Positions 46,881-56,822 of a DNA stretch of 64,000 bases are shown one piece after another. Both the position numbers and the translations under genes were made by a program. The first letter of the stretch is position 1, and every line of letters begins with the position of its first letter. The notes beneath the pieces are model-generated. The model worked only from the letters and a program-made list of their open reading frames with translations. It was not told the DNA's origin and did not search any database. The stretch lies in NCBI GenBank assembly GCA_015485155.1, contig WFUF01000014.1, positions 124,001-188,000 on the forward strand, written 5' to 3'. Source of the stretch: Robiginitomaculum sp. Lineage in GTDB: Bacteria > Pseudomonadota > Alphaproteobacteria > Caulobacterales > Maricaulaceae.

Positions 46881-49187
46881 TTACAGTTTGGCGCGCCGCA
46901 GCCTCAGGGCATTGGTAATTACCGAAAATGAACTAAGGCTCATGGCAGCAGCAGCGATTATTGGTGACAGCAACAATCCAAATACCGGATATAACACCCC
47001 GGCTGCTACTGGAACTCCAAGAGAATTATAGGCGAAGGCAAAGAACAGGTTTTGCTTGATATTTGTCATTGTGGCTTCTGCCAGTCGCCGAGCCCGTATA
47101 ATCCCGCGCAAGTCACCGCGCAGCAGGGTTATTCCAGCGCTTTCCACGGCTACGTCGGCCCCGGTTCCCATGGCGATCCCAACTTCGGATTGGGCCAGAG
47201 CCGGGCTGTCATTGACACCGTCACCAGCCATGGCCACCACATGACCTTCACTTTGCAGGCGTTTGACCAGCGCAGCCTTGTCCTCCGGCATTACATCTGC
47301 CCATATCTCATCTATGTCCAGCCTGTCAGCCACTGCCTGAGCCGTGCGTTTATGGTCGCCAGTAGCCATAATTATGGTCAGGCCTTCTTTATGCAAAGCG
47401 GCAATGGCTTCTTCGGTGTTTTCCTTGATCGGATCGGTCACCACCAGAATTCCGGCAGCCTTACCATCTATGGCAATGAACATGACGGTTGCGCCCGTGG
47501 CCCTAAGCTCGTCAGCCCGTGCCTCCATGCCCTGGTCTTCAATGCCAATGCTTTTCATCATCTTGGCGTTACCAAGAGCCAGAGACCTATTGTCTACTTT
47601 GCCGCTAACTCCCATCCCGGAGTGCGAGTGGAAGTCTTCAGTTTTCGACAGTTTTAACGCCCTTTCTTTTGCAGCATCAACAATGGATTCAGCCAAAGGA
47701 TGGGCGCTACCTTGTTCGAGACTGGCGGCCAGAGTTAGCAAATCGTCTTCGGAAACGCTGGCATCAAGGCAAACAATTTCAGTAAGTTTTGGTTTGCCTT
47801 CGGTTAAAGTGCCGGTTTTATCAACGATCAGCGTATCAACCTTGGCAAACAGTTCCAGAGCTTCAGCGTTCTTTATCAAAACCCCGGCAGTGGCCCCCCG
47901 GCCGGTGGCAACCATGATCGAAATCGGGGTTGCCAGTCCCAAAGCACAAGGACATGCAATTATTAGCACGGAAACCGCAGCAATCAGCCCATAGGCCATG
48001 GGCGGGATTGGCCCCCAGAGGGACCATGCAATAAAAGATACAATTGCAATCAAGATAACTGCCGGAACAAAGATCGCAGATACACTGTCAGCCAGTTTTT
48101 GAATAGGAGCGCGGGAGCGCTGGGCTTCGGCAACCATTTCAACGATTTGCGATAGCATGGTGTCAGCACCAACCCTGGTGGCACGCAGGACAAAACTGCC
48201 ATTACCGTTAATGGTTCCACCCGTAACCATATCTCCAACAGTTTTTTCTGCGGGTATTGGTTCGCCAGTAATCAGGGATTCATCAATATGCGATGATCCT
48301 TCGACCACCTCTCCATCCACCGGAACCTTATCACCGGGACGAACCCGTAATAAGTCTGCAGTTTTCACATGCTCCAGAGGAATATCTTCCTCTGAACCAT
48401 CATCACGAACAATTCGAGCGGTTTTCGGGGCCATGTCCATTAAAGCTAAAATGGCGCTGCCAGTACGAGCGCGGGCGCGCAGCTCCAGCACCTGACCCAG
48501 CAATACCAGCACCACAATTACTGCGGCAGCTTCAAAATAAACCTCAACCGTTCCAGCCTCACCACGAAATGTATCCGGAAAGACACCAGGAGCAATGGTT
48601 GCTGTGATACTGTATAAAAGAGCCGCCCCGGTACCAATGGCGATCAAAGTGAACATGTTCAGGCTTTTATTGATTATTGATTGCCAGCCCCGGACAAAAA
48701 ATGGCAGACCCGCCCAGGCTACTACCGGGGTTCCCAGAATCATTTCTATCCATTTTGCAACTGTAGATGAAGACCAATTGCCAACATGCGGTATCCATTC
48801 CTTTACTGGCAAGCCAACAAATGGCCCCATGGCAATTATCAGAACCGGTATTGTCAGCACCAGCCCTATCCAGAATCTGCGGGAAAAATCAACTAGCTCC
48901 GGATCTGGCCCGGCATCAGGATCGGGTAAGCCTTTTGGCTCCAGAGCCATGCCACATTTTGGGCAGCTTCCCGGGCCAATCTGCTCAATTTCCGGGTGCA
49001 TTGGGCAGGTATATACCGCATTTTCATCAACGGGGCCTACAGGGGTTGATGGAGTATGACCGTGACAGCATCCGCCTTCGGCTTCTGGTGCGGTGGGCTC
49101 GACTTCGTGATCGTGACAGCTTTGATCCTCGGCCTTTTCGGGTGCCGGTGCTTTCTTTTGTGTTTCGTGCTCGCAATCATGTGCCAT
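46881..49187 (-). CDS. Copper/silver-exporting P1B-type ATPase with His/Cys-rich N-terminus
   Basis: The 768-residue pump starts with a His/Cys-rich stretch ([16 protein letters not shown]) and a heavy-metal-binding domain ([20 protein letters not shown]), but no HMA domain. The P-type core is complete: [12 protein letters not shown] in [32 protein letters not shown] and [10 protein letters not shown]. The last membrane segments show YN and MSLSSFS, the P1B-1 pattern for Cu+/Ag+ export. AGGAG lies 11 bases before the ATG. It is the last minus-strand gene of the metal island, after the Met/Lys/His-rich lipoprotein. Confidence 0.93.
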
Positions 49188-49257
49188 TGATCATAACGCT
49201 CCTGTTTCCACGGAAATTCGACCGGATTGAAACATCCAGCTTGCCTAGCTCAAAATA

Positions 49258-49296
49258 TAGAGCGCTTCTGATTATATTGGAATCAGAAACGCTCTA
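49258..49296. repeat. Palindromic element between the lipoprotein and ATPase genes
   Basis: TAGAGCGCTTCTGATT (49258-49273) and AATCAGAAACGCTCTA (49281-49296) are 16-base inverted arms with one mismatch around a 7-base loop. On the plus strand ACTTTTTTG follows, so it could also terminate plus-strand transcription. The AGAGCG...CGCTCT form resembles palindromes I remember as repeated in other alphaproteobacterial genomes. It lies in the 187-base gap before the ATPase start. Confidence 0.65.
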
Positions 49297-49374
49297 CTTT
49301 TTTGTCATATCAAAATTCATTTTTGAGTCCATGCACAGCTTGGATCCAAAACAATTGTTATGGCCGAAAAGGAG

Positions 49375-50031
49375 TTAGTGCTTGTGCTCCGGCGCTGACT
49401 TGTCATCGTCCTTTGCTTCGGTTTTTTTCATTTCTTCGTGTTTTTTATCACCATGCATTTTTTTGTGTTTTTCTTTCATTAGCTTGTAGCATTGTTTTTG
49501 CGCATGGTTCATGCCCTCACCGCTTTTCATTTTTTCTTTCATGGCAGCCTTGTCCATGCCAGCAGCTTTCATATCTTTCTTCATTTTTTTCATCATTACC
49601 TTGCACTGCTTAAAAGCGCTGCCGTCGCCATTTTCTTTCATGGCATGCTTTTTCATCTTGTGTTTCTTTTTCATTTCTCCGTGTTTTTTATCACCGTGCA
49701 TTTTTTTATGCTTTTCATGCATCATCTTGTGACATTGTTTTTTCGCGGGACTCATGCCTTCACCGCTTTTCATTTTTTCTTTCATAGCGGCCATATCCAT
49801 TTCGCCGCTTTTCATTTTTTCTTTCATTTTTTTCATCATGGCCTTGCACTGCTCAGGCGTAACCTGTGCGTCTTGTGGCTTGGAATGATGTTCTGCATTA
49901 GTCGCAGTCGCCGTTTCTGGTTCCGGAGCAGATTCAGCCGCAGCTCCCTTAAAGCCATAGGATGCGCATGAACTTAATAACAGGCCGGCAGGGAGCACCA
50001 TTGCCAGCATCCATTTTTTTGAAATTTTCAT
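49375..50031 (-). CDS. Met/Lys/His-rich lipoprotein with duplicated 81-residue unit
   Basis: The 218-residue protein has a lipoprotein signal (LPAGLLLSSC, lipidated Cys22), a Glu/Ala/Pro linker, then two tandem units of 81 residues. Each has QCKxMMKKMK, MKEKMKSGEGM, a second Cys in KQCxKxM, and EKHKKMHGDKKH. Dense Met, His and Cys in a periplasm-facing lipoprotein points to Cu(I)/Ag(I) binding (inference). DNA copies are offset by exactly 243 bases, so the duplication is recent enough to be seen in the bases. GGAG precedes the ATG at 50031. It lies upstream of the copper ATPase gene on the same strand. I know no described family with this unit. Confidence 0.85.
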   Translation of the reverse strand: MKISKKWMLAMVLPAGLLLSSCASYGFKGAAAESAPEPETATATNAEHHSKPQDAQVTPEQCKAMMKKMKEKMKSGEMDMAAMKEKMKSGEGMSPAKKQCHKMMHEKHKKMHGDKKHGEMKKKHKMKKHAMKENGDGSAFKQCKVMMKKMKKDMKAAGMDKAAMKEKMKSGEGMNHAQKQCYKLMKEKHKKMHGDKKHEEMKKTEAKDDDKSAPEHKH

Positions 50032-50188: not shown

Positions 50189-50391
50189 GATCAACTTATA
50201 AACTGTATTGGTGTTTTAATGGTGTTTGCATTCATGATTTCAGGCGACTTAAAAGCAATACCGGCAATCAGTACCGGCCGCATGGCGGCATGCTCGACCC
50301 GCCGCATATTACCATGGGCACAGCCTGTTGCAGGTTTACGTAGCTGGCTTTGGGCGTTACAAGGCGACAATTCAATACGGTTTGCAGGTGC

Positions 50392-50715
50392 ATGAAGCAG
50401 TTTATTTCAAAGTTTCTGGTTGTTTGCTTGTTAGCGATATCCTTGCATGGATTTGGCGCAGCAGAACACGTGGCAATGGCCAAGGACATTCAGACCATCA
50501 CTGAAGTCTCAAGCCTGGACATGGAAGAACCCAGGGATAATATGCTGCAGACCTTGAACGCTGCTTGTGATATTTGTCAGGCGGTTCACCAATACCTTAT
50601 AGTTGCTGATGGCTCTCAAATTGAGTTGAGAGCTGTGGCCAGAATCAAGCAAATGAAATTTGCCCCCCCTCCTGATCGCGGGCACTGGGATATTTTACAC
50701 CCTCCTACAATCTAA
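50392..50715 (+). CDS. Small secreted CxxC protein upstream of the RND operon
   Basis: The 107-residue protein has a signal peptide (about residues 1-22, FLVVCLLAISLHGFGAAE) and a CDIC motif followed by a His (AACDICQAVHQYL), which could bind a metal or form a disulfide. It ends in a Pro-rich tail (FAPPPDRGHWDILHPP). Small proteins with such CxxC motifs often precede metal RND operons, but I cannot assign this one to a named family. The ATG at 50392 has AGG 5 bases upstream. Confidence 0.65.
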   Translation: MKQFISKFLVVCLLAISLHGFGAAEHVAMAKDIQTITEVSSLDMEEPRDNMLQTLNAACDICQAVHQYLIVADGSQIELRAVARIKQMKFAPPPDRGHWDILHPPTI

Positions 50716-50864: not shown

Positions 50865-52133
50865 ATGAGATATATTATTCCGGTGCCGCTGGGCGCCATT
50901 CTGATCGGACTGGTTATAGCTTCCGCATCTTTTGCCCAATCTGAGCAAAATGACACCTTGTCATCTCAAAGTTCAAGGCCACTTATTGCAGGCTTTGTGC
51001 AATCGGTTACATCACGTCATCCGGCGATCATTGCTGCTCAGGCTGAAGTGGATGCTGCTTCGGCTCGTGTTGCTGGTGCTGGCCGGGCGCTTTATAATCC
51101 GGAGTTGGAGGCCGACTTTGAGGATGCCGATGTCACTACCAAAACCGTAGGTGTTGCGCAGACCATTGACTGGTCCAAAAAGCGTCAGGCGCGTACGGAT
51201 ACTGCTGAGGCTGACCTTATAGCAGCGAAGGCCGCTTTGGAACTGGTACAAAAATCAGTAACCACTGATCTGCTATCGGCGCTTGCTGAACATCAGAGCG
51301 CCTTTGAGCAAATGCAACTGGCCAAGGCGCAGATCCGGCTGGCACAGGATTTCCTGGAATTGGCTAAAACCCGAAAATCTGCCGGTGACTTATCACAATC
51401 GGAATACCTCACTGCGCGCTTGTCTTTATCTCAAGCCTTGGCACAGCAAGCCAGTATTCAGGTTCAGCTTTCACAGGCCAGGCAACAATTGGCCGCTCTT
51501 TCCGGAGAGCAAAAGGACGTGTGGCCCCTATTGGTCGGGGTGCCGCAAAGCGGGCTGCTTAGGGCCGGAAATATTCAGGTGGATAGCTTGCCTGAGGTGC
51601 GTTTTGCAACCGCAAAAACCAATGGGTTTCGTTCAAGAATTAAGCTGGCCGACAGAATGAGAAAGGCAGACCCAACCATTGGCCTGCGCTTTGGTCAGGA
51701 AGGCGATGGTCTTGGCGGCAATAGTACCTTGTTTGGCGTTCGTGTGGCTATTCCCTTGCAGATATTCAACAATTACAGCGAGAGCGTTACAGCGGCTCGT
51801 GCCGAAGCTATTGGCGCAGAAGCCAGTGCCAGGAATGTGCATAGACAAATTGGCGCCAGACTACAGGCAACTACCGAGCGTTATCTGGCTTCGGAAAAGG
51901 CCTGGAGACTGTGGCAGGATGCTGGCACCGCCCAACTGGGCGAGCAGCGTGAATTGCTGAATACTCTTTGGGAGGCTGGAGAGACCGACGCTGTGGCTTA
52001 TCTTATTCAACTTAACCAAACATTTGATGCCGAAGCTGCAGCCATTGAGCTGCGCAGCGCCTTGTGGCGTAGCTGGTTCGACTGGCTGGACGCATCTAAT
52101 TCTTCTTCTTACTGGCTGGAGGCCATTCAATGA
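50865..52133 (+). CDS. Heavy-metal RND outer-membrane channel (CzcC/CusC/TolC family)
   Basis: The 422-residue product has a signal peptide (about residues 1-24, VIASASFAQS) and two OEP repeats. Long helices with heptads appear at ARVAGAGRALYNPELEADF, LEFEQMQLAKAQIRLAQDFLEL and later at ARAEAIGAEASARNVHRQ. It would form the trimeric exit duct for the RND pump. It overlaps the adaptor gene by 4 bases, so the operon order is outer channel, adaptor, pump. Confidence 0.92.
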   Translation: MRYIIPVPLGAILIGLVIASASFAQSEQNDTLSSQSSRPLIAGFVQSVTSRHPAIIAAQAEVDAASARVAGAGRALYNPELEADFEDADVTTKTVGVAQTIDWSKKRQARTDTAEADLIAAKAALELVQKSVTTDLLSALAEHQSAFEQMQLAKAQIRLAQDFLELAKTRKSAGDLSQSEYLTARLSLSQALAQQASIQVQLSQARQQLAALSGEQKDVWPLLVGVPQSGLLRAGNIQVDSLPEVRFATAKTNGFRSRIKLADRMRKADPTIGLRFGQEGDGLGGNSTLFGVRVAIPLQIFNNYSESVTAARAEAIGAEASARNVHRQIGARLQATTERYLASEKAWRLWQDAGTAQLGEQRELLNTLWEAGETDAVAYLIQLNQTFDAEAAAIELRSALWRSWFDWLDASNSSSYWLEAIQ

Positions 52134-53302
52134 CTTTTGAACTTAAACTTGATAAATCAATTCTATTGGCAGGCGCATTATTGCTGATTGCTCCGATCGG
52201 GATGTCCTTGTCAACCCATGCTATTGCTGCCGGTGCTGAAGAAGACGGCCATGGCGATCAGCATGGTGAAGAAAAAGAAGAAAATGTCGTTGAAATGAAC
52301 GCTGCTGAACGCAAGAAGCAGGGCGTGGAAGTTGCACGGGTTTCCTTTCGTGCCTTAAATCAGGAAATCAGTGCTCCGGGTGAGGTATCATTTGATCAGT
52401 ACCAAAGCTCACAGGTTACGCCGCGTATTCCAGCACAAATACTGACCCGTCATGTTAAACTTGGAGACCATGTGGCGGCAGGTGACAGGCTGGTAACCTT
52501 GTCCAGTGTGCAAATGGCCGAAGCCCAAGGTGAGTTGATCGTAGCATCCCGTGAGTGGAAGCGGGTCAAGAACCTTGGCAAAAAAGTAGTATCTGATCGC
52601 CGCTATATCGAAGCCAAGGTGACAGCACAGCAGGCCAGAGCCAAGGTGTTGGCTTTTGGGATGACTGCTGCGGCTACGGAGCAATTGGCAGCAAGCGAAG
52701 ACGCTACCAAAGCTGTTGGTGCCTTTACCTTGTTTGCCAGACAAAGTGGCACCATTATGAACGATGATTTTGTTATCGGGGAGTTCGTACAGCCAGGTCG
52801 GGTTTTGTTCGAGATCACCGATGAGAGTACCGTCTGGGTTGAGGCCAGGCTATCAGCAAGCGAAGGATCGCAGGTTGAGGCTGGTGCACCGGTTCGTGTT
52901 CAAACCAGTTCTGGCGCTTCTTTTGCCGGGACTATCTTGCAGGTGCGCCATCAGGTAGACGAAACCACCCGTACCCTGTCCGCCAGAATTTCAGTCGATA
53001 ACAGTGCTGATCAATTGCATGCAGGTGAATTTGTCACTGCCTTTGTAGAGAGCGGCTCTTCAGATCCGGTTTTAGCAGTACCACAACAGGCGGTTACGCT
53101 AATGGGTGGTCAAACCCAGGTTTTTACCTTGCACGGCACTGATGAATTGGAGCCAACACCGGTTCTGCTCGGCCGGGAGATCGGCGGCTGGGTTGAAGTA
53201 AAAAGCGGCCTGTCTGCAGGTGATCAGATTGTAGTATCGCAGATTTTCAAAGTGAAATCCCAGGTTCTGAAGTCAAAAATGGGAGGGGGGCACGGTCACT
53301 AG
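52130..53302 (+). CDS. Heavy-metal RND periplasmic adaptor (CzcB/CusB family)
   Basis: The 390-residue membrane-fusion protein has an N-terminal signal anchor, a His/Asp/Glu-rich segment (GHGDQHGEEKEENV), then the barrel-sandwich hybrid and helical hairpin (VTPRIPAQILTRHVKLGDHVAAGD, REWKRVKNLGKK) and the membrane-proximal domain, ending in GGGHGH. The His-rich ends are good candidates for metal hand-off to the pump. It overlaps the outer-channel gene by 4 bases and lies 86 bases before the pump gene. Confidence 0.93.
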   Translation: MTFELKLDKSILLAGALLLIAPIGMSLSTHAIAAGAEEDGHGDQHGEEKEENVVEMNAAERKKQGVEVARVSFRALNQEISAPGEVSFDQYQSSQVTPRIPAQILTRHVKLGDHVAAGDRLVTLSSVQMAEAQGELIVASREWKRVKNLGKKVVSDRRYIEAKVTAQQARAKVLAFGMTAAATEQLAASEDATKAVGAFTLFARQSGTIMNDDFVIGEFVQPGRVLFEITDESTVWVEARLSASEGSQVEAGAPVRVQTSSGASFAGTILQVRHQVDETTRTLSARISVDNSADQLHAGEFVTAFVESGSSDPVLAVPQQAVTLMGGQTQVFTLHGTDELEPTPVLLGREIGGWVEVKSGLSAGDQIVVSQIFKVKSQVLKSKMGGGHGH

Positions 53303-53388
53303 ACCTGCACCTGTTAAATAACTCGTTGGCACCACAGATCTGGTTTCTGCGTGCCTGAAATGCGACGAATGAAAGAAGTAGAGTTATC

Positions 53389-56300
53389 ATGTTAAACAAA
53401 CTCGTAGAATTTTCTTTACAATACAAAGCTTTGGTGATTATCGCCTTTGGCGTTGTGGCCTTTTTGGGGTTTCGTGCCGTTAACACCATTCCCATTGATG
53501 CTTTTCCGGATGTAACTCCGGTACAGGTTAACATTTACACTGAATCCCCCGGTCTTGCAGCCGAGGATGTGGAGCAATTGCTTACATTTCCGGTAGAATC
53601 AGGCATGGCCGGTTTGCCTGATGTGCAACAGATACGCTCGGTAAGTCTGTTTGGATTGTCCTATGTTGCGGTTTATTTTGAAGACAGCATGGACATTTAT
53701 TTTGCCAGAAGACTGGTAATGGAGCGGCTGGCAGAGGTGGCAGATCGTATTCCCGAAGGTTATGGCACCCCGGAAATGGGGCCTAACACTTCCGGGCTTG
53801 GGCAGGTTTTCTGGTACACGTTGGAGCGAGCTGATGAGAAGCTGAATTCTGACATTACGGATATGGATTTGCGGACAGTGCAGGACTGGAATGTGCGGCT
53901 TATTCTTCGTACGGCTCCTGGTGTTGATGATGTTATGTCCTGGGGTGGTCAGGAACAGCAGTTTCAGGTGCAAATTGATCCGCTGAAATTGATCAAATAT
54001 GAACTTGGTTTTCGCGATGTAATGGATGCGTTGCAGATCAATAACCGACAGGTTGGCGGTCAATATATTGATCGTGGCCCGGAGCAATATCTGGTGCGAG
54101 GTCTCGGGCTGGTCAAAAGCAGTGACGACATTGGCGACATTGTATTGAAGGTTTCGGACGGAACGCCGGTTTATATGCGCGACGTTGCCACAATAGTTAA
54201 GGCCCCGTCTTTGCGCTTTGGTGCGGTGACAAGGGATGGCAAGGAAGTGGTGCTGGGCATGGCTTTGTCGCGGATTGGTGAAAATGCCAAGGCGGTGGTT
54301 GATAATGTCAAGGATAAAGTCGAAATCGTTGAAGGGGCTTTGCCTGAGGGTCTGGTCATTAAGCCGATTTATGATCGAACTGAATTAGTGGAAAAAGCCG
54401 TACATACGGCCGAGAAAGCCTTGATTGAGGGTTCGATTCTGGTTGCCATTGTCTTGTTTTTGTTTCTTGGAGAAATCAGATCGGCTCTGGTGGTGATTAC
54501 CGCTTTGCCTTTGGCGATGTTAATTGCTTTTATTTTCATGCAGCAAATGGGTCTTTCAGCCAATTTAATGTCATTGGCTGGTCTGGCGATTGGTATTGGC
54601 ATGATGGTTGATGGCGCGGTTGTGATGGTGGAGAACTCGTTCCGCATCATGGCAGAGCGACGTTCCGAGGGTAAGGGTCCAGTCAATCGAACTGCGGCGG
54701 TTTTAACCGCAGCTCGTGAGGTGGCCAACCCTGTTACCTTTGCAATTGCCATTATCATTATTGTGTTTCTGCCATTATTTTCACTTGATGGTCTGGAGGG
54801 CAAGCTGTTCAAGCCCATGGCCTTTAATATCAGTTTTGCCATGGCTGGCTCCATGTTGTTGACCTTGACCATTATTCCGGTTCTGGCAGCGTTGATTCTA
54901 AAGCCCAAGGAAGAAAAGGACACCATGCTGGTGCGCTGGATCAAAAACGGCTATCTGCCGCTGCTTGCCTTTGCCTTGCGCCGCAAAGCGGTTGTGATTA
55001 TCAGTGCAATCGCTTTATTGCTCGGGTCGCTTTCACTGTTTCCCCTGCTTGGCAAGGAGTTCATGCCGCAATTACAAGAAGGCTCTATCATGTGGCGGGT
55101 GACCTCTATACCGTCGACATCCTTGGACGAGTCTATCAAAATATCAATTGATATTGAAAACGCCTTGAGCGCTTTTCCGGAAGTGGACACTACCATTGCG
55201 ATGATCGGTCGGGCCGAGAAAGGTGAGACCGCTGACGTAAATTATATGGAGATTTATACCGCCTTGAAACCTCATGACGAATGGCCTGATGCAAAGCGCT
55301 CATTTGAAGACCTTGCTGATGCCATGCGCGAGAGGCTGGAGGTAGTAGCTCCTAATTCGGTTGTTGCCTTTACCCAACCAATTCAAATGAGGGTTGAGGA
55401 GTTGATCTCCGGGGTGCGGGCCACATTGGCGGCCAAGCTCTATGGCGAAGATCTTGGTGAACTTGATCGCTTGAGCCAGGAAATCAAGAACGTCATCAGC
55501 AATATTGACGGTGCTGCGGACTTGTCTTTGGAAGCCAATATCGGCAAACCGCAAATTCGTGTTTCGGTGGATCGCAAGGCTTTGGCCCGCTATGGTATGA
55601 ATGCCGACGAGGTGCTGGAATTGGTACGAACCGGTATCGGCAATGAGCCGGTAAGCACCTTGATTGATGGCGTAAAGCGCTTTGATATTACCGCTCGCCT
55701 CAATGATGCCAGTAAGGCCTCGGTTATTGCTATTGAAAACATACCATTACGTACAGCAACCGGTGCGATCATTCCGCTAAAGCGGGTAGCGAACATAACT
55801 ACGGCTGAAGGGTATTCATTCATTCGTCGTGAGCAATTACAACGCTATGCCGTGGTGCAAATGGATGTGCGTGACCGTGATGTGGACGGGTTTGTACAAG
55901 AAGCAAATGCCGCTATTGCCAGCCAGATCGATATGCCGCCAGGATATTGGGTTGAGTGGGGCGGAGCCTTTGAAAACCAGCAGCGTGCAATGCAGAAGCT
56001 GGGCGTGATTGTTCCGATCACTATCTTCTTCATTTTTGTGCTACTATATACCGCATTTAACTCTTTGCGGTTTGCGGCTCTAATCATTGCCAATGTCCCG
56101 TTTGCCACTATTGGCGGCCTGTTTGCACTTTATTTGAGTGGTCAATATCTCTCTGTGCCATCAGCCATTGGTTTTATTGCCGTGTTCGGGGTGGCGATGC
56201 TGAACGGTATCGTGCTGATAAGTTTTATTAACGAGTTGCGCGATAAAGGCATGAATATTGCCGAATCGGTGCGAAAAGGCGCTGAAATGCGACTGCGCCC

Positions 56301-56517
56301 GGTGATGATGACTGCGTCAGTAGCCATTCTTGGCCTGATACCAATGCTGCTTTCCAGCGGAGTTGGTGCCGAAACCCAGCGACCATTGGCCGCCGTGGTA
56401 ATTGGTGGACTAATTACCTCCACCCTGCTTACCCTGTTGTTGTTGCCGGTTATTTACGAGTGGATGGAAACGGGCATTGAGCGCCGCCAACTTGCAAAAA
56501 GGAACGCACAATCATGA
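53389..56517 (+). CDS. Heavy-metal efflux RND pump (CzcA/CusA family)
   Basis: The 1042-residue inner-membrane proton antiporter has 12 expected membrane segments and two large periplasmic loops. It starts MLNKLVEFSLQYKALVIIAF, has TIPIDAFPDVTPVQVNIYTESPG and the HME-type LAIGIGMMVDGAVVMVENSF in TM4, whose Asp carries protons, and ends ITSTLLTLLLLPVIYE. The TM4 signature is not the VDAAIVMIENAHK of copper-specific CusA, so the metal is not settled. It overlaps the PII-like gene by 4 bases. Confidence 0.95.
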   Translation: MLNKLVEFSLQYKALVIIAFGVVAFLGFRAVNTIPIDAFPDVTPVQVNIYTESPGLAAEDVEQLLTFPVESGMAGLPDVQQIRSVSLFGLSYVAVYFEDSMDIYFARRLVMERLAEVADRIPEGYGTPEMGPNTSGLGQVFWYTLERADEKLNSDITDMDLRTVQDWNVRLILRTAPGVDDVMSWGGQEQQFQVQIDPLKLIKYELGFRDVMDALQINNRQVGGQYIDRGPEQYLVRGLGLVKSSDDIGDIVLKVSDGTPVYMRDVATIVKAPSLRFGAVTRDGKEVVLGMALSRIGENAKAVVDNVKDKVEIVEGALPEGLVIKPIYDRTELVEKAVHTAEKALIEGSILVAIVLFLFLGEIRSALVVITALPLAMLIAFIFMQQMGLSANLMSLAGLAIGIGMMVDGAVVMVENSFRIMAERRSEGKGPVNRTAAVLTAAREVANPVTFAIAIIIIVFLPLFSLDGLEGKLFKPMAFNISFAMAGSMLLTLTIIPVLAALILKPKEEKDTMLVRWIKNGYLPLLAFALRRKAVVIISAIALLLGSLSLFPLLGKEFMPQLQEGSIMWRVTSIPSTSLDESIKISIDIENALSAFPEVDTTIAMIGRAEKGETADVNYMEIYTALKPHDEWPDAKRSFEDLADAMRERLEVVAPNSVVAFTQPIQMRVEELISGVRATLAAKLYGEDLGELDRLSQEIKNVISNIDGAADLSLEANIGKPQIRVSVDRKALARYGMNADEVLELVRTGIGNEPVSTLIDGVKRFDITARLNDASKASVIAIENIPLRTATGAIIPLKRVANITTAEGYSFIRREQLQRYAVVQMDVRDRDVDGFVQEANAAIASQIDMPPGYWVEWGGAFENQQRAMQKLGVIVPITIFFIFVLLYTAFNSLRFAALIIANVPFATIGGLFALYLSGQYLSVPSAIGFIAVFGVAMLNGIVLISFINELRDKGMNIAESVRKGAEMRLRPVMMTASVAILGLIPMLLSSGVGAETQRPLAAVVIGGLITSTLLTLLLLPVIYEWMETGIERRQLAKRNAQS

Positions 56518-56822
56518 AAGAGCTAAAAGCATATATCCACAGAAACCGGGCTGCTGATGTGGTCCGGGCTCTGCGTCTTGCTGATTTTGAGCATTTTACC
56601 CTGGTTGACGTAAAACAGGTGATGCAAACTCTGGAGGCTAGGGAACAGGAGTATTCCACCGAATTTGGTGCCCGTGTGCAAACAGAGGTAAAGCTGGAGC
56701 TTGTTTGTAAGGCGGAGCAATTGCAAGAAGCAATTCGCCTGATCACAGAAAATGCCAAAACCGGACAGGAGGATTCCGGCTGCATTTATGTTAGCAATAT
56801 TTCTGAACGCTACATGATTTAG
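56514..56822 (+). CDS. PII-like protein coupled to the RND pump
   Basis: The 102-residue protein has a GlnB-like ferredoxin fold: MKELKAYIHRNRAADVVRAL, VKLELVCKAEQLQEAIRLI and the end TGQEDSGCIYVSNISERYMI, parallel to GlnB's TGxxGDGKIFV. The T-loop region lacks the canonical GlnB sequence with its uridylylated Tyr. PII-like proteins (PII-NG group) are known next to CusA/CzcA pumps, where they are suspected to sense metal or nucleotides and control the pump. It overlaps the pump gene by 4 bases and is the last gene of the operon. Confidence 0.8.
   Translation: MKELKAYIHRNRAADVVRALRLADFEHFTLVDVKQVMQTLEAREQEYSTEFGARVQTEVKLELVCKAEQLQEAIRLITENAKTGQEDSGCIYVSNISERYMI

Follow-up and report, generated by a model that had tools for sequence, protein, structure and literature searches.

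The window analysed here is a stretch of 64,000 nucleotides from a Robiginitomaculum sp. genome. The following features of the window are considered.

46881..49187, minus strand: P1B-1 Cu+ ATPase gene of the LpCopA type, with a His-rich N terminus and an HMBD domain; conserved downstream neighbour.
49257..49297, minus strand: 17-bp hairpin in the gap that separates the lipoprotein gene from the ATPase gene (z −7.2).
49375..50031, minus strand: lipoprotein gene of 218 amino acids with two Met/Cys/His units; an open reading frame (ORF) with homologs in relatives.
49378..49386, minus strand: C-terminal His-Lys-His at the end of the lipoprotein.
49450..49608, minus strand: core of unit 2, Q142-G194, with predicted helices at 138-156, 161-170 and 176-207.
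49693..49851, minus strand: core of unit 1, Q61-G113, with predicted helices at 59-74, 80-89 and 95-113.
49966..50031, minus strand: lipoprotein signal peptide, which ends in the lipobox LSSC22 and is followed by Ala.
50865..56517, plus strand: TolC-type, adaptor and CzcA/CusA-type RND genes; context outside the conserved unit.

The lipobox LSSC22 agrees with the initial annotation, in which the protein was described as lipid-anchored at Cys22. The two units start at Q61 and Q142, which gives a spacing of 81 residues, and their in-register identity is 77% over 62 residues. The local alignment score of one half against the other was 258, whereas 2000 composition-preserving shuffles gave a mean of 64.1 (sd 9.3) and a maximum of 109, which rules out a chance repeat. 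The corresponding repeat at the DNA level spans 187 nt with 82% identity and a spacing of 243 nt. The description as tandem units of 81 residues holds for this spacing and identity, but the part conserved between species comprises about 53 residues. The pattern HKKMHGDKKH, which had been counted as part of the unit, is a tail peculiar to the window protein and is no feature of the family. The mature protein contains 25.5% Lys, 13.3% Met and 7.7% His, and the precursor carries a net charge of +24.8.

An antisense ORF of 159 amino acids lies at 49492-49971, opposite the lipoprotein gene. A mechanical-ORF artefact was rejected for the lipoprotein gene itself on the basis of the dN/dS of its minus-strand frame, which ranged from 0.06 to 0.19 in the nine computable pairs among the 21 pairs of seven sequences, the other 12 being saturated. 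Seven of these nine pairs have a dS above 1, and the two with a dS below 1 gave dN/dS values of 0.16 (genomes G002/G013) and 0.06 (G014/G009). The lipoprotein is under purifying selection.

A unit profile of 53 positions, built from 15 units, matched 13 of the 137 genomes of the host family, and all 13 belong to the host genus, which has 18 genomes in this sample. The search with the single protein gave matches in 13 of 99 genomes (own genome included), every one in the host genus. The unit profile matched six of the 398 genomes of the order sample, all of the host genus, and in the class (385 genomes) and phylum (398 genomes) samples, which overlap with each other and with the family and order samples, the sole match was the window's own genome. 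No unit was found outside the host genus in any of the four samples. In a genome contig collection, 206 stretches matched the patterns of the profile search and 13 loci were confirmed, all of them in Robiginitomaculum sp. MAGs; the single-protein search of the same collection gave nothing. No locus was confirmed in viral contigs, and tblastn against 72,556 plasmid records gave no match to the lipoprotein, although this was a weak test with the low-complexity filter on. The lipoprotein is a real gene family, narrow in range.

The number of units per protein is one in G017, G015, G011 and G012, three in G009, and otherwise two; the copies of the gene in G004 and G001 are cut by contig ends or N. 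A lipobox is present in 11 of the 13 proteins of the confirmed loci, and the remaining two (L055 and L057) are incomplete because of a contig end or a run of N. After the lipid Cys, the copies seen have Ala, Val or Thr and never Asp. In E. coli, the residue at this position helps decide the membrane in which a lipoprotein resides, and by this rule the constant lack of Asp points to an outer-membrane location. His-x-His stands at the extreme C terminus in 10 of the 13 C-termini seen (own included) and is missing in G017, G004 and G001.

The similarity of the two units within the window protein is 0.75, compared with 0.72 and 0.64 for units elsewhere. Units of the same protein are at least as alike as others also in G005, G007 and G013, with a tie in G002. 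In G014 and G009, the similarity within the protein is lower (0.58 vs 0.81 and 0.95); G004 was left out of the comparison, as its best partner is its own other contig. In the unit tree, 14 of the 20 inner branches are open. It is likely, but not proved, that the units were repeatedly duplicated within lineages or were homogenised.

The consensus core of the unit is approximately ECKAMMxKMHEKMKSGxMDMAAMKxKMKSGEGMSxxQKxCHKMMHxKM. In the 15 units of the profile, the invariant residues are both Cys, one Met, one Asp, one Ser and two Lys; in a later alignment of 22 units, the Ser is no longer invariant and a third Lys becomes so. Over 23 units, Met accounts for 21.9% of the residues, and Leu, Val, Ile, Phe, Trp and Tyr together for 2.0%. 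Each unit contains 10-14 Met in 22 of the 23 cases, with seven in the third unit of G009, and a simple HxxM occurs in 22 of the 23. Two Cys per unit, as first reported for the window protein, were seen in both of its units and in all 23 units of the family. These 23 units came from a pattern that demanded both Cys; a profile search with no such demand gave 25 matches, which are the same 23 units and two cut short.

The net charge per unit ranges from 0 to +11 among the 23 units, and that of the whole protein, where both ends are present, from −1.1 (G012) to +35.9 (G009); the single-unit proteins of G012 and G015 are near neutral. The numbers of Met (10-14) and Cys (2) are steady while the charge varies, which indicates that the soft-ligand load is constant and the charge is not. 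The strongly basic character emphasised at first is therefore true of the window precursor but is no family trait, and strong positive charge was rejected as a mark of the family.

The next gene on the same strand had been named as a Cu-type P1B ATPase, and this identification was borne out. The ATPase (46881-49187) scores above the TIGR01511 cut-off of NCBIfam, carries an HMBD domain (Pfam), and aligns over residues 25-767 with 3rfu, the nearest solved relative, the copper efflux ATPase LpCopA of Legionella; the CPC, YN and MxLSS motifs are visible. The lipoprotein gene lies immediately 5' of the LpCopA-like ATPase gene on the same strand in 11 of the 13 carriers (the own genome and 10 of the 12 relatives). 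In the two exceptions, G014 and G009, the ATPase gene does not adjoin the lipoprotein gene; in G014 it lies on a different contig, and the search of G009 (73% complete) gave none. The genus-type ATPase is present in 12 of the 13 carriers and in one of the five non-carriers (a fragment in G006; Fisher one-sided p 0.008), or in two of the five when the 61%-identical ATPase of the non-carrier G016 is counted (p 0.044), an association that is weakened by the incompleteness of the MAGs. In G017 (L027 2833-9787), an insert that contains a transposase-like ORF interrupts the ATPase beside the lipoprotein gene, and the lipoprotein gene is open.

The one HMA-domain match of the own genome lies on contig C19 (L095 380-3137), within a mer-like set of MerR-, MerT-, MerP- and MerA-like genes assigned by eye. 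Since this sole match belongs to the mer-like set, a CopZ-type HMA chaperone to serve the Cu+ ATPase was not seen.

The lipoprotein and ATPase genes are separated by 187 bp in the window; among the eight relatives with a placeable start (G012 and G001 left out), the distance is 73-151 bp. The hairpin has z ≤ −2.0 in seven of the nine gaps folded, for which stretches were chosen by hand, and is weak in G017 (z −1.5) and G015 (z −0.3). A U-tract follows the stem in six of the eight relatives folded (G011, G005, G007, G002, G013 and G004). A scan for consensus promoters and terminators was at chance level, with six terminator sites against 5.1 expected and the window hairpin not among them, and the Rfam search gave nothing. 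Allowing up to three mismatches, copies of the window hairpin gave seven matches, compared with a chance mean of 1.6 and a chance maximum of 6; these are its own two arms, which are exact, and five others with three mismatches each. The hairpin may act as a partial terminator, which would let the lipoprotein outnumber the pump.

On the other side of the lipoprotein gene, the initial annotation had placed a metal RND operon. A TolC/MFP/CzcA-CusA-type set does lie there on the plus strand, but its reading as a copper system is unsupported and it is adjacent in part of the carriers only. The pump is of the CusA/CzcA type by TIGR00914, and its closest solved structures are ZneA, then CusA. In the alignment, one of the three Met of the CusA methionine triad (CusA numbering) is present, the other two being Arg and Glu. 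In G005, G007, G002 and G013, some 7.3-7.5 kb separate the TolC-type gene from the lipoprotein gene, and in G015 the two are near each other. The RND set was not found in the 20-kb stretches of G011, G017, G009 and G014, although in G014 a TolC-type gene adjoins the ATPase on its other contig; in G012, G004 and G001, the contig does not reach far enough to show whether the set is present. The inconstant position and the single triad Met indicate that the RND set is no evidence for copper specificity.

Other genes were observed in this neighbourhood. A gene for a P-II-like protein (56514-56822, plus strand; PF00543, E 1.8e-9) directly follows the RND pump gene, as one does in G015. A small secreted-looking ORF with the motif ACDICQxVHQY (50350-50715, plus strand), which has no Pfam match and no NCBIfam match over the cut-off, precedes the TolC-type gene in the stretches of five relatives and in G014, as judged by eye. 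An ECF-sigma-like gene stands beside a Metal_resist/CnrX-like gene in the own genome (L094 1390-2404), in G014 (L024 3927-5347) and in G011 (L033 4491-5499); PF13801 was matched in L094 and L024, and L033 and the sigma labels were assigned by eye. In G014 and G011, the distance from the pair to the lipoprotein gene or its ATPase is no more than about 2-4 kb.

The whole window protein was modelled with AlphaFold2 from 13 sequences, with a mean pLDDT of 66.4 and a pTM of 0.34. Both units were modelled as three helices with pLDDT mostly of 81-90, and the N-terminal part is of low confidence; each unit is thus predicted to be a three-helix module. Judging from the helix limits, the two Cys of each unit would lie close to where helices 1 and 3 begin, and these two helices would be parallel in an up-down-up bundle. 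The content of only 2.0% Leu, Val, Ile, Phe, Trp and Tyr suggests that Met forms the core. The Met and Cys residues fall on one face of the consensus helix 1 (moment at 100 degrees, shuffle p 0.0004; p 0.004 over the first 30 residues), and their moment is not significant in helix 2 (p 0.23) or helix 3 (p 0.08).

The view that no described family has this unit agrees with Pfam, NCBIfam, PDB and Foldseek, which gave no convincing match. The profile search with neighbourhood counts, proposed at the outset as a check, likewise yielded a family without a convincing known match whose gene adjoins the ATPase gene in 11 of the 13 carriers. Foldseek with the whole model gave nothing at E ≤ 0.001 and one match at E 9.9. 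The match of the window protein to DUF3502 (E 0.0088, below cut-off), the NCBIfam matches of L049 (about 17.9 bits against cut-offs of 50-285) and the PDB matches at E 0.43 and 0.81 were attributed to chance. Pfam matches of 11 members to SPMAP1-like (4/11, best E 0.025), CCDC53 (3/11, best E 0.0065) and BBS7_GAE (1/11, E 0.00013) are to eukaryotic or unrelated helical families and were judged to be chance because of the biased composition. In the open-access literature, a search of weak scope, no description of the unit was found.

SilE and PcoE, the Ag+/Cu+ sponges of sil and pco operons, are periplasmic, Met/His-rich, helix-forming repeats near Ag/Cu efflux genes, as is the lipoprotein. SilE is reported as binding six to eight Ag+, as disordered without metal, and as carrying the motifs MxxHxxxxxHxxM and HxxMxxxHxxM (PMC5008109). 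For the lipoprotein, AlphaFold2 predicted helices, a result compatible with either metal-free state. Either SilE motif occurs in two of the 23 units, namely window unit 1 (the second motif, HxxMxxxHxxM) and unit 1 of G009, and the other 21 are without. SilE is also not known to have a lipid anchor or a conserved Cys pair, unlike the lipoprotein. No similarity to SilE/PcoE was detected, in that the window protein has no NCBIfam match, no credible Pfam match and, weakly tested because of the low-complexity filter, no tblastn match among the plasmid records, which we assume to hold silE/pcoE. Csp proteins are four-helix bundles lined with many Cys, and the lipoprotein resembles them in its helical-bundle modules carrying soft ligands; its unit differs in being Met-based with three predicted helices and two Cys (23/23). 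DUF326/PF02860, named as the Csp signature in a further report (PMC6769254), is absent among the Pfam matches listed for the lipoprotein family. CusF is a small five-stranded beta-barrel with a His/2 Met/Trp site and serves as the periplasmic Cu+/Ag+ partner of the CopA ATPase (PMC7558416). The lipoprotein would be similar as a periplasmic partner of a Cu+ ATPase with a positive surface, but is predicted to be all-helical and is repeated. Membership in SilE/PcoE or CusF is unsupported by the tests made.

Another Cys/Met/His-rich lipoprotein was found in two of the 137 family genomes, G034 (L080 807-1229, plus strand) and G200 (L092 1501-1923, plus strand). Like the window protein, it has a lipobox and is rich in Met, His and Cys, and its G034 copy precedes an HMBD ATPase gene of the same strand, with one DUF5676-like gene (below cut-off) in between. 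The profile comparison with the window protein gave a probability of homology of 5.4%. Among the 16 ATPase loci outside the carriers with the upstream side listed, G034 alone has such a same-strand gene; in G076, small Met/His-rich ORFs lie on the opposite strand at the ATPase locus, and the comparison showed no homology of the window protein to the G076 protein. The presence of an apparently unrelated lipoprotein of this kind near the G034 ATPase suggests that such partners may arise repeatedly, and the G034/G200 lipoprotein is possibly an independent solution.

The lipobox, the repeated unit with its conserved Cys pair and constant Met load, the purifying selection and the placement before the Cu+ ATPase gene argue for a lipid-anchored periplasmic putative Cu+ sponge or acceptor, made of repeated three-helix modules beside its pump; we assign this reading a probability of about 0.6. 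Export by the lipobox and the neighbouring copper ATPase gene (11 of 13 carriers) are traits of sponge-type proteins. Points against it are the lack of an adjoining ATPase gene in G014 and G009, the replacement of Met by Ile, Leu or Val, which suits a plain hydrophobic core equally, the Lys columns, which are as conserved as those of Met, and the Cys pair, which may be a plain disulfide. The saturation of 12 of the 21 dN/dS pairs, the low overall confidence of the model and the lack of a Foldseek match also weigh against it. A more specific version is possible but tentative, in our judgement rather doubtful: a new modular fold with a core of nearly all Met, together with Ala and the Cys pair, in which bound Cu+ or Ag+ would replace the usual hydrophobic core, and whose tandem multiplication in this one genus would raise the copper capacity beside its own Cu+ pump.

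The placement of the gene before the ATPase gene would also suit a periplasmic chaperone that binds copper at few specific sites and would pass Cu+ from the ATPase to the RND adaptor or a cuproprotein with no bulk storage. The basic charge had been considered odd for a metal binder, and this objection does not stand, since the positive surface of E. coli CusF is reported to dock on a negative periplasmic loop of CopA (PMC7558416), which also favours a chaperone. The ATPase loop examined is more acidic in carriers (mean charge −1.9, n = 12) than in non-carriers (−0.4, n = 11; Mann-Whitney p 0.001), in a comparison of related rows uncorrected for phylogeny. One ATPase per genome was used, the 11 non-carriers include G016 of the same genus, and G023, G019, G071 and G067 (unmatched) and G059 (cut short) were dropped. 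However, among carriers the protein charge does not track the loop charge, as judged by eye, so docking remains a suggestion. The one to three units with many Met each suit capacity and not one site, and the RND neighbour is inconstant; we consider a chaperone unlikely.

Still less likely, in our estimation, is a cationic helical lipoprotein held by a disulfide that serves the envelope in general, for instance by contact with the outer membrane or LPS or by the trapping of oxidants by Met, and that has no direct metal role. The Cys pairing is compatible with a disulfide, the Lys content is high, and the net charge reaches +35.9. By a hand count over 12 Met columns, with column 53 left out, 159 of the 180 cells retain Met, and 14 of the 21 exceptions are Ile, Leu or Val, which indicates that these Met positions are also core positions; the conservation is 0.83 for Lys columns and 0.84 for Met columns. 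The retention of Met, the variable charge and the linkage to the Cu+ ATPase stand against this alternative. A relative of Spy, CpxP or CnrX (LTxxQ, Metal_resist) turned Met/Cys-rich, acting as a metal sensor or chaperone, is very improbable: helices 1 and 3 start in part of the units near TPEQ/SEQQ-like stretches, which we regard as resembling the LTxxQ motif, but the PF13801 match is not significant (E 0.041) and is limited to one of the 11 members, and the prediction for the unit is a three-helix module.

For the putative sponge, the following course can be proposed. Cu+, and probably Ag+ too, would leave the cytosol via the ATPase or enter from outside, and would be captured in each module by Met thioether, His imidazole and possibly Cys thiolate. 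The Cys pair of each unit may form a Cu+-thiolate site, or a disulfide in the oxidising periplasm. The number of units, from one to three, would set the capacity, and the hairpin between the genes would allow more sponge than pump to be produced. In members that have it, positive charge may aid docking, either on the acidic face that the pump turns to the periplasm or on the outer membrane.

By analogy, the best reading is a known kind of job, that of a sponge like SilE/PcoE and partly that of a pump partner like CusF, carried out by a family that matched nothing in the libraries searched. The lipid anchor, the predicted folded Met-core module, the paired Cys and the variable number of units are its new traits. 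The lipoprotein would add an unrelated, folded and lipid-anchored solution, paired with a single pump, to the job described for the disordered SilE/PcoE and for CusF. With 22% Met and 2% other large hydrophobic residues, such a core offers a test of whether Met alone, or Met together with metal, holds a fold. Within one genus, the neutral single-unit and basic multi-unit members provide a series that separates metal capacity from charge.
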